Assembly: GCA_937870835.1 (NCBI GenBank) | Contig: CALMWW010000020.1 | Coordinates: forward strand, 1-35,139 | DNA length: 35,139 bases | Source: an uncultured bacterium | GTDB lineage: Bacteria; Patescibacteriota; Minisyncoccia; Minisyncoccales; Minisyncoccaceae | Direction of reading: 5' to 3' | Part shown: positions 1,944 to 5,308 of the stretch, one piece after another | Layout: every line of letters begins with the position of its first letter | Numbering within the stretch: position 1 is the stretch's first letter | Made by a program: the position numbers and the translations under genes | Notes under the pieces: model-generated | The model's database searches: none | Told to the model about the DNA's origin: nothing | Seen by the model: only the letters and a program-made list of their open reading frames with translations

Positions 1944-1975
1944 AAAAAACCGCCTTGTGTTTTATTAAGACGGTT
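1944..1975 (-). terminator. Intrinsic terminator after the Clp-like ATPase gene
   Basis: On the minus strand a 9-bp stem AACCGTCTT / AAGGCGGTT (one G-U pair), 10-base loop, is followed directly by a run of T. It sits 18 bases after the stop of the ATPase gene and before the mraZ promoter, closing that operon. Confidence 0.8.
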
Positions 1976-1993: not shown

Positions 1994-4522
1994 TTATAAT
2001 AATTCTATAGAAAAAGTATTAGGATTAATCTTAAAGTTAGAACCCGGACCAATTTTATCAGCTAATAAGGCTTGAGCAATAATATTTTCAACTTTATCTT
2101 GAATAATTCTGTTCATTTCTCGAGCGCCAAAAATTGGATTAAAACCTAAGATTGCCACTTTTTTTGTAAGCTCCTCGGTAATAATAAAATTTATTTTTTT
2201 AGATTTTAAATTTTTAGCAATTTTGTTTAATTGTAGTTGAGCAATTTGGAACAAATCAGATTGCGTTAAAGATTTAAAAACAATTACTCCATCAAATCGG
2301 TTTATAAACTCAGGACGAAAAATATTATTCGCAAAAATATAATCTAACAAATCTTTTTTAATTTCCGGAATTTGTTTATTTAATTTTAAAGCTTCTAAAA
2401 TAACTTTATAGCCTGCGTTGCTTGTAGCAATAATGATAGTATTAGAAAAACTAACCTTAACCCCAAAATTATCATTAATATATCCTTCATCTAAAACTTG
2501 AAGAAAAAGATTAAGAATGTCGGGATATGCCTTTTCTATTTCATCTAATAACACCAGAGAAAATGGATTATCCCTCACCGCTGTAGTTAAAATTCCGTTT
2601 TGAGTTTCTGAACCCAATAAGCGAGGAATGTCATCTACTCGCTGGAATTCTGACATATCCAAACGAATCATTCTATCTTCGGAACCAAAATAAATTTCTG
2701 CTAAAGCTTTGGCTGTTTCAGTTTTACCGACACCAGTTGGACCTAAAAATAGAAAACTTCCCATTGGTCCCTTGCCAGTATTAATACCAGCGCGAGCACG
2801 GCGCATAGCCGATGAAATTTCACGAATAGCCTCATCTTGGCTAATAACCCGTTTATGTAAAGCTGATTCTAAATTTAAAAGAATTTCTTTTTCTTGACTC
2901 TTAACTCTTCCCAATGGAATTTTAGTTTTTTGAGATAAAATCTCATCAATGTGCTCTGGTAAAATAAGTTTTATATCTGAGTGTTTAGAACTATAAGTAA
3001 AAGCATCTTGTAATAACGAAATAGCTTTTTGCGGAAACGGCGCAGAAACATATTTACCAGATACTTCTATAATTTCTTTAAGAGCTTGATAAGTAATAAA
3101 TTTTTCATATTCTTTTTCTAATCCAAAAACCATATTTTCTAAAATAAGCATTGTTTCTTCCGGAGATAATTCAGGAACTTCTACTTTTTCAAAAAGATTT
3201 AAAATAGCTGGTTTTGCTTCTATATATTTATGCAATCCTTGAGGAGTAGTTAAACAAATTAATTGCAACCGAGGATCGCTTAAATAAGGAGTTAATATTC
3301 CTGATATATCAGTAATTCCCGCCTTTCTTTCTGCTCCTAAAAAATCATGAAAGTCATTAAGAATTAAAACAACATTGCCGGCAGATAGGGCTTCCTTAAA
3401 ACACTGATTAATAACTGCCTCAGTATCTTCCAAAGAATTTACGCTTGCTGAGAGAGCGACTAAATCTAATTGTAAAAATCTTTTATAATTCAATTCAGAT
3501 GAACATTGTCCCTGAATTGATTTTCTAATAATAGTATGAATAATATTTTTACGGCCAACCCCGGCTTCGCCCACCAATAAAACATTGCGCGGACCTTTTC
3601 TTGTTAAAATTTTTTCGGTTAATTCTACTTCTTCATTGTGCCCAATAACTTCTTCGTATCCTCTTTGCCTTAAATTACTTGACCAATCAATGGCAAATTT
3701 ATCTAAAGTAACAGTATAACCATAAGACAAATCACTGCCAATTGAACCATACTTAATAAGGTTTTCAAAAGAGCCAAATTCTCTATCTTTTTTAATTTTA
3801 GTATTGATGGATTCTATCCACCAAGAAATATTTTCTATATCTTCACGCCCCATTTCTAAAGAAATTAATGTTTTTTGAAATAATGGTTCAATATCAGCCA
3901 AAGCAGCTAACAAATCTCCTTCTTTTATTCTATCTCCTTTTCTTTTTAATGATGACTGCACCGCTTCAAAAATAATAGAATCAAATTTATCTGAATCATT
4001 ATCCAAATTATTTTTTATATTTTCTTCAAGCTGGTCCTTAAAATCATAAAACGATAATCCTGTCCTCCCAAATATAAAAATTATCTTTTGATTCTTTTCA
4101 TCTAATAATTCATAAAGTAAAATTGTAGAAGTTGGCGTGCTTAAATTAAATTTTTCTGCTTGCTTAAAAGCACGAACAATCGCTTTAGCAGAATTATAAT
4201 TAAGCCATTCAGCTAAATTAGCATTTTTATCATTAACAGCTTCGGCTAAATTTTTATATTGAGAAGGAATTGGTTTTTTAAGTGAGTGTTCAAAAAAATT
4301 ATTTAAAATTTGCAGCCAAACCCATAAAGAAAATATTATTAAACCAATTCCAAGCAATAAATTTTTAGTAGAACTTGGTAAATTTTGATTTAGGGTTAAT
4401 AAAAATATTAATATAAGAACAATAAATAAGATTAATAAAATATTTTTTATAACTGCTAAAACCCGAAAGTTATTTTCGGATTGAATAGTTTGGTAAATTT
4501 CAGTTTGTTTTAAGTTAAACAT
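1994..4522 (-). CDS. Membrane-anchored Clp-family AAA+ ATPase with degenerate first ATPase domain
   Basis: 842 residues. Two predicted membrane segments (about 20-44 and 54-74) precede a Clp-N-like helical region (about 90-235) and two AAA+ modules. Module 1 has GEAGVGRKN (318-326), where the Walker A lysine is R and the next T/S is K, and LILNDFHD (386-393), where the Walker B DE is ND; this site is probably not catalytic. Module 2 is intact: GPTGVGKT (594-601), LVLLDE (656-661), sensor TSNAG and arginine finger FRPEFINRF (735-743). There is no ClpB-type coiled-coil M-domain and no (I/L/V)GF loop of the ClpP-docking kind between the sensor and arginine-finger regions. It starts inside the end of the preceding small membrane protein gene (8-base ATGTTTAA overlap). 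Likely a membrane unfoldase or remodelling ATPase; substrate unknown. Naming it ClpC or ClpB would be over-precise. Confidence 0.88.
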   Translation of the reverse strand: MFNLKQTEIYQTIQSENNFRVLAVIKNILLILFIVLILIFLLTLNQNLPSSTKNLLLGIGLIIFSLWVWLQILNNFFEHSLKKPIPSQYKNLAEAVNDKNANLAEWLNYNSAKAIVRAFKQAEKFNLSTPTSTILLYELLDEKNQKIIFIFGRTGLSFYDFKDQLEENIKNNLDNDSDKFDSIIFEAVQSSLKRKGDRIKEGDLLAALADIEPLFQKTLISLEMGREDIENISWWIESINTKIKKDREFGSFENLIKYGSIGSDLSYGYTVTLDKFAIDWSSNLRQRGYEEVIGHNEEVELTEKILTRKGPRNVLLVGEAGVGRKNIIHTIIRKSIQGQCSSELNYKRFLQLDLVALSASVNSLEDTEAVINQCFKEALSAGNVVLILNDFHDFLGAERKAGITDISGILTPYLSDPRLQLICLTTPQGLHKYIEAKPAILNLFEKVEVPELSPEETMLILENMVFGLEKEYEKFITYQALKEIIEVSGKYVSAPFPQKAISLLQDAFTYSSKHSDIKLILPEHIDEILSQKTKIPLGRVKSQEKEILLNLESALHKRVISQDEAIREISSAMRRARAGINTGKGPMGSFLFLGPTGVGKTETAKALAEIYFGSEDRMIRLDMSEFQRVDDIPRLLGSETQNGILTTAVRDNPFSLVLLDEIEKAYPDILNLFLQVLDEGYINDNFGVKVSFSNTIIIATSNAGYKVILEALKLNKQIPEIKKDLLDYIFANNIFRPEFINRFDGVIVFKSLTQSDLFQIAQLQLNKIAKNLKSKKINFIITEELTKKVAILGFNPIFGAREMNRIIQDKVENIIAQALLADKIGPGSNFKINPNTFSIELL

Positions 4523-4901
4523 AATTAAAAATTAACTTAAACCCATATATAATTCCAATAATAATTAAAAATGGCAAAGCTATCCAAATTAATAAAGCTG
4601 ATAGACCAATAACCAAAACTAAAATTTCAAATATCACAAACATTATCAAAAGAAAAACTCTCATTAAAAAACCAATGGCAATAGCAATTAAATTGCCCAT
4701 AACCACATTTATAAAATTCTCTAGATCAAATCCTCTTTCAAATTGCATTGTTTCTTTTTTCCACGGCGCAAATAAAGAAAAAATTAAATCTTTAGCTGAA
4801 AAATAATAAACTCCGCTCGCTAAAAAGTTGCCTATAATACTAATAATCTGCTTGGTCTTTTGAATATAGTGCCACGAAAGATATTTTAATCCTAAATTCA
4901 T
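4515..4901 (-). CDS. Small three-segment membrane protein, partner candidate of the Clp-like ATPase
   Basis: 128 residues, not recognised as a named family. It has a first hydrophobic segment (about 18-35), then a polar stretch with the motif LFAPWKK (43-49) followed by a region with acidic and basic residues, then two long hydrophobic segments (about 65-92 and 93-123). A similar LF-x-PWK stretch recurs, to my recollection, in hypothetical CPR membrane proteins. Its ATG overlaps the stop of the preceding gene as ATGA, and its own stop overlaps the ATPase start by 8 bases, so all three should be translated together. Such tight coupling suggests one membrane complex with the ATPase. Function unknown. 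Confidence 0.75.
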   Translation of the reverse strand: MNLGLKYLSWHYIQKTKQIISIIGNFLASGVYYFSAKDLIFSLFAPWKKETMQFERGFDLENFINVVMGNLIAIAIGFLMRVFLLIMFVIFEILVLVIGLSALLIWIALPFLIIIGIIYGFKLIFNYV

Positions 4902-5203
4902 TTAATTCTTTTTAAGATTACTTTATATAAGCCTTCTAAAAAATCGCCGCCAGCATACCCAATAATAAAAGCAATGGCTGGAGATATAAAAGATATTCCT
5001 TCAATTGTAATAGCTGATTCTTTTACAGCAATAGCGGTTAAAAGCCCAACAACGGCCGAGATAAATGCCATTAAGAAAAAATAAGGAATATTAAAAGACG
5101 GATTTTTATAAGAATAAGAACTTTCTTTTTTTAGAAATCCAACCAGCCCTCTTACTGCTCCTCCGCCAAATCCAGCAATAAGAATTGATATAAAAAAATT
5201 CAT
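4898..5203 (-). CDS. Small glycine-rich three-segment membrane protein
   Basis: 101 residues, no family recognised. The first membrane helix (about 3-22) contains a glycine-rich stretch (GFGGGAVRG, 11-19) of the kind used for tight helix packing; a second helix spans about 40-60, and a third about 70-87 carries another small-residue motif (GYAGGDFLEG, 82-91). The size and topology recall holin-like or adaptor proteins, but there is no phage context and I do not assign that role. It is the first gene of the trio with the LFAPWKK protein and the membrane Clp-like ATPase; its TGA stop overlaps the next ATG. A plausible promoter lies at 5279-5308. Confidence 0.72.
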   Translation of the reverse strand: MNFFISILIAGFGGGAVRGLVGFLKKESSYSYKNPSFNIPYFFLMAFISAVVGLLTAIAVKESAITIEGISFISPAIAFIIGYAGGDFLEGLYKVILKRIK

Positions 5204-5278: not shown

Positions 5279-5308
5279 ATTATACTCTTTTAAGATGGAA
5301 AAAGCCAA
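5279..5308 (-). promoter_or_regulatory. Candidate promoter of the membrane Clp trio
   Basis: On the minus strand TTGGCT (5303-5308), 18-bp spacer, TATAAT (5279-5284). The -10 is perfect, the -35 matches 4 of 6. Predicted start is about 5272, giving a leader of about 70 bases before the first gene. No other clear promoter is seen in the 121-base gap after uppS. Confidence 0.45.

Follow-up and report, generated by a model that had tools for sequence, protein, structure and literature searches.

A conserved gene pair of Patescibacteria encoding a small membrane protein and a predicted membrane-anchored Clp-type ATPase lacking aromatic pore motifs

The DNA analysed here, referred to as the window, is a complete stretch of 35,139 nucleotides from an uncultured bacterium of the Minisyncoccaceae (Patescibacteriota). 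Three genes of the window, P3, P2 and mClp, lie in this order on the minus strand, and both of their junctions overlap (ATGA and ATGTTTAA); the features are listed in Table 1. A sequence-only reading had described the three ORFs, their strand, the two overlaps, the membrane helices and a terminator, and all of these proved to be real by ORF analysis, hydropathy and folding. Three hydrophobic segments were found in P2 and likewise three in P3. The terminator hairpin has a folding energy of -9.7 kcal/mol (z = -4.2), none of 200 shuffled sequences was equally stable, and a simple terminator scan had overlooked it owing to the loop length of 10 nt. The promoter suggested by the same reading is indeed present as a sequence, but promoter-like sites are common in AT-rich DNA such as this (30 observed vs 20.8 +/- 4.5 expected), and thus it counts as weak evidence.

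Table 1. Positions of the genes, signals and functional sites of the P3-P2-mClp locus in the window.
Feature	Positions	Strand	Remarks
Intrinsic terminator 3' of mClp	1948..1975	-	9-bp stem, 10-nt loop, U-run
mClp, 842-aa membrane-anchored Clp/Hsp100-type AAA+ ATPase	1994..4522	-	ORF; TM hairpin, Clp_N-like domain, degenerate D1, intact D2
D2 arginine finger R742 (FINRFD)	2297..2299	-	R in 182/182 aligned residues
D2 Walker B (DE), intact	2540..2545	-	D and E in 183/185
D2 pore loop 1 site, shortened vs PPGYVGYEEGG of soluble Clps	2594..2614	-	without aromatic-aliphatic-G motif
D2 Walker A, intact (GPTGVGKT)	2720..2743	-	K in 184/185
D1 Walker B, degenerate (ND vs DE)	3353..3358	-	
D1 Walker A, degenerate (GEAGVGRKN vs GxxGxGKT)	3545..3571	-	
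mClp membrane helices, two, N-terminal, residues 24-42 and 55-73	4304..4453	-	hydropathy 3.17 and 2.35
P2, 128-aa multi-pass membrane protein, mClp partner	4515..4901	-	motif LF(S/A)PWK/R, positive charge at residue 81
P3, 101-aa glycine-rich membrane protein, first gene here, outside conserved module	4898..5203	-	
Candidate sigma-70-type promoter of operon (weak evidence)	5279..5308	-	TTGGCT-18-TATAAT, 10/12

The large protein mClp carries two AAA+ domains with the Clp-type D2-small lid that characterizes Clp/Hsp100 AAA+ proteins, and its Pfam matches are AAA_2 (PF07724, 1.4e-43), ClpB_D2-small (PF10431, 1.9e-18) and an AAA lid, with no M41 metalloprotease domain among them. In its AF2 model (pLDDT 85.8) the N-terminal helices span residues 16-43 and 50-81, and the closest PDB folds are ClpC chains (E 2e-50). 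By sequence and model, mClp is a member of Clp/Hsp100 nearest to ClpC, and the view of the ATPase as a membrane-anchored Clp relative is borne out by hydropathy, Pfam and fold match. The NCBIfam equivalog cut-offs were missed for both ClpB (445 bits vs 1232 needed) and ClpA (394 vs 993). In a FastTree analysis of D1-D2 that included soluble patescibacterial Clps together with E. coli ClpA and ClpB, the mClp family formed one clade apart from the soluble Clps, with a split support of 1.0. The N-terminal 270 residues have matches in 54 of 60 relatives, and among 185 mClp relatives, two N-terminal membrane segments were found in 134, one in 26 and three in 16, as called from hydropathy alone. Some genomes, such as G114, give two separate matches to the N-terminal profile. 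A diverged group (L142, L143, L153, L167) has a CxxC zinc-ribbon-like stretch before the membrane hairpin and its own diverged P2 upstream, and in L129 (G353) a 1253-aa ORF extends mClp by about 400 residues at the C-terminus.

The functional motifs were counted in 185 members of the mClp family and in 12 soluble Clp controls. At the lysine position of the D1 Walker A motif, R is found in 97 members and K in 79, vs K in all 12 controls, and the following T is retained in 15 of the 185. The catalytic E of the D1 Walker B motif is present in 53 of 185 members and in 12 of 12 controls, and the D1 arginine fingers are lost, the pair being replaced by S/N/A and L. Judged from these motifs, D1 is degenerate throughout the family and does not qualify as an active D1 of the ClpA/B/C kind. 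The Walker lysine nevertheless persists in a sizeable minority of members, which means that D1 may still be able to bind nucleotide. In D2, the Walker A and B motifs, the sensors and the arginine finger are conserved in 182-184 of the 185 members.

The pore loops have changed in both rings. The D2 motif [YFW][VIL]G occurs in none of 180 mClp D2 loops and the D1 motif [KRT][YFWH][RK]G in none of 185 D1 loops, whereas the 12 soluble controls have standard loops, and the soluble ClpC-like protein of the same genome carries GYVGY in its D2 loop as the other controls do. An aromatic residue stands at other positions in 23 of the 180 D2 loops. Taken alone, the missing aromatic residues are compatible with weak or unusual threading; with aromatic pore loops absent from both rings and D1 degenerate, the extraction of membrane or exported proteins that had been proposed for this ATPase appears unlikely by the usual Clp mechanism. 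Furthermore, the ClpP-docking [LIV]G[FL] loop was not seen in the D2 of mClp; at its expected site, the order-level alignment shows a 7-residue deletion, and the insert lost there carries LGF in the genome's own soluble Clp. A replacement of ClpP or FtsH was considered and rejected, since ClpP is kept alongside mClp in 58 of 60 relatives and FtsH, as a separate gene, in 53. The suggested link to ClpP or FtsH found no support in these counts, and the ClpP-loop site is deleted in mClp.

The small protein P2 had no consistent Pfam match and no PDB sequence match, and structure comparison of its model gave no fold relative with E < 0.001. In the AF2 model (pLDDT 94.1), residues 3-33 form a helix and residues 36-41 a short one, and residues 60-127 make up a long helical region. 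W10, S35, the W of the LF(S/A)PW motif, N70, G77 and P110 are near-invariant. All 147 aligned copies carry R or K at residue 81 (window 4659-4661), within a hydrophobic region; this charge may possibly make contact with the mClp hairpin. Eleven residues further on, E92 is frequent.

The linkage of the two genes was followed in 168 distinct loci from the order of the window and the wider phylum. P2 lies directly upstream of mClp in 132 loci and is fused to it in 12, which makes 144 of 168, and in 8 others the contig begins at the mClp gene. One of the remaining 16 is an ordinary soluble Clp (L169), L150 and L165 are fusions whose P2 part is diverged, six are diverged mClp members with a diverged P2 homologue upstream (L142, L143, L145, L153, L158, L167), and the last seven are exceptional loci, for five of which P2 is encoded elsewhere in the genome. 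The diverged homologues align with P2 at hhalign 95.8% (E 7e-9). Of 41 loci examined around N-terminal ATPase matches, 39 have P2 upstream, in most cases with an overlap. The two remaining loci comprise an in-frame fusion of P2 to the ATPase and a contig that begins with the ATPase gene. Starting from P2 gave the same picture: in 20 P2-selected loci, chosen mostly because their genomes had given no match to the N-terminal ATPase profile, an mClp without the pore motif was found in all 20, fused in 8 and next door in 12. On the D1-D2 tree, the fused proteins appear in seven or eight distinct groups. Two of them, L276 (G183) and L283 (G352), are minimal 629-aa proteins in which P2 is joined straight to D1-D2 and the Clp_N domain is missing, so P2 and the two AAA+ domains make up the core. 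Conservation of P2 with mClp far beyond chance is confirmed by these gene orders, and the conserved unit, as read from the loci, is one of two genes and not three.

The third gene, P3, behaves differently. The sequence-only reading had taken the three genes as one unit that should stay together in relatives, with the ATPase coupled to both small multi-pass proteins. The coupling held for P2 but failed for P3, which occurs in 32 of 60 relatives and is next to the pair in just three genomes, namely that of the window (G000), G003 and G017, the latter two having P3, P2 and mClp in the same gene order as the window. In G032, P3 is 5.7 kb from the pair. The P3 loci fetched showed no constant neighbour, and the genes around P3 there are unrelated. 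Since P3 is mostly apart from the pair, it is, on this distribution, a passenger in the operon of the window and incidental to the module. P3 weakly matches a phage holin family (PF16083), but the E value of 0.0016 does not pass the curated cut-off. One genus has P3 in several tandem copies, partly broken and unlinked to the pair (L292 in G015:C2, L293 in G002:C3, and G009:C14).

A broad P2 profile matched 225 of 381 Patescibacteria genomes, with one match per genome, in a set of species representatives whose related lineages are not independent. In a sample of the newly found diverged matches (e.g., G112, G152, G076, G077 and G113), P2 again immediately precedes the ATPase gene and has the same orientation. 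Named relatives found with an alignment of the middle region include Nealsonbacteria, Staskawiczbacteria, Wildermuthbacteria and Gribaldobacteria. Some complete genomes of the same class have no P2-mClp, with only soluble Clps among the matches examined, and therefore the module is not universally needed. In many loci of the window's order, the pair is flanked by rplJ/rplL upstream and by mraZ-rsmH-ftsL-ftsI downstream, neighbour names being assigned from recognisable sequences. Outside the order, this arrangement was not seen, and P2 is the sole widely recurring neighbour of mClp. Another lineage-specific neighbour, found ahead of P2 in 24 loci of the order (e.g., L053 and L252), is a 115-aa membrane protein belonging to a single family and encoded about 700 bases upstream of mClp.

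Several known systems resemble mClp in part. With ClpC, ClpA and ClpB it shares the double AAA+ architecture, a Clp_N-like domain and the ClpB_D2-small lid; it differs from them in its N-terminal membrane hairpin, degenerate D1, absence of aromatic pore loops from both rings, lack of a visible ClpP loop, constant small membrane partner and separate clade. FtsH and Msp1-type proteins are also AAA+ rings held to the membrane by N-terminal helices, but they belong to the classic AAA lineage rather than to Clp and thread via pore loops, and FtsH has an M41 protease. The plant SMXL/D53 proteins resemble mClp as degenerate Clp-like proteins with a non-unfoldase role, and SUPPRESSOR OF MAX2 1 gave a weak PDB sequence match to mClp; however, they are soluble nuclear regulators and have no membrane partner. 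The torsins, with LAP1/LULL1, are like mClp in being Clp relatives at a membrane; they too have no aromatic pore loops, and they depend on a membrane cofactor (PMC5425593), much as mClp is paired with P2. In torsins, however, the arginine finger comes from a cofactor with an AAA+ fold, while mClp has its own invariant D2 finger and P2 is a small membrane protein modelled as helices only; mClp has two AAA+ domains and would act at a bacterial membrane, whereas torsins belong to the eukaryotic ER and nuclear envelope. The torsins are, by analogy, the closest functional parallel to mClp, not a family to which it belongs, homology having been shown only via Clp. The open-access literature searched contained no relevant description of membrane Clp proteins or of P2-mClp in Patescibacteria, in agreement with the earlier statement that no system of this composition was known.

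On balance, we think it somewhat probable that P2 and mClp form a membrane-anchored machine powered by D2, with P2 as its membrane subunit, and that this machine acts on a membrane or envelope complex by remodelling rather than by threading. The two proteins would be subunits of one machine of the cytoplasmic membrane, and their linkage and natural fusions suggest that they are in physical contact. The N-terminal hairpin would tether mClp to the membrane on its inner face, and mClp, like other Clp proteins, may assemble as a double ring, in which D2 alone would burn ATP and D1 would serve as a structural or nucleotide-sensing tier. P2 would be a permanent membrane subunit that either anchors the ring or links the ring's ATP cycle to a membrane-embedded or membrane-associated client. 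The ATP-driven conformational change would then alter how the membrane or envelope complex is shaped or assembled. Remodelling without threading and without feeding of a protease is most likely because the pore loops are absent from both rings and the ClpP loop was not seen. Such a membrane machine is probably of a type not yet described.

A quality-control extractase would explain part of the same evidence: mClp would pull membrane proteins through its ring as Msp1 and FtsH do, by means of non-canonical pore contacts and with P2 as the receptor. The Clp-family fold, the membrane anchor at the ring entrance and an active D2 with its predicted arginine finger agree with this, and P2 could serve in such a role. 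We regard it as unlikely, since the aromatic pore motif is missing from both rings in all members examined, mClp has neither a protease domain nor a visible ClpP-docking loop, and most relatives retain FtsH and ClpP as well.

Gene neighbourhood leads to another proposal, namely that the pair has the dedicated task of assembling or regulating proteins of the cell wall and of division such as FtsI or FtsL. Downstream of the pair, mraZ is found in 67 and rsmH in 66 of 110 order-level loci, but genes can lie next to a conserved cluster passively, and mraZ-rsmH-ftsL-ftsI was not among the recurring neighbours in 78 wider-phylum loci. This linkage, being confined to the order, points to local inheritance rather than function, and we consider the proposal quite improbable. 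A three-protein complex of P3, P2 and mClp would fit the overlapping genes of the window and their shared order in two further genomes, yet it seems highly improbable with P3 next to the pair in so few genomes, with unrelated neighbours around P3 elsewhere and with the pair complete without P3 in nearly all loci.

The reading of P2 and mClp as a non-threading remodelling machine can be extended, although only tentatively and at somewhat less than an even chance, to a lineage-wide machine of Patescibacteria in which threading was abandoned. It would be a counterpart of the torsins that arose separately from Clp stock and would remodel a membrane or cell-surface structure needed for the lifestyle of these bacteria. 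Clp/Hsp100 proteins are taken as threading machines, and the torsins are the known exception, with a mechanism still unresolved. If the proposed reading is true, mClp would provide a tractable bacterial family in which to ask what a pore-loop-free Clp ring does, one that is large and well conserved, keeps its D2 chemistry intact and has just one small partner protein. The families enriched in this bacterial group are mostly poorly annotated (PMC6744442), and P2-mClp is a candidate function-bearing module for many of its genomes.
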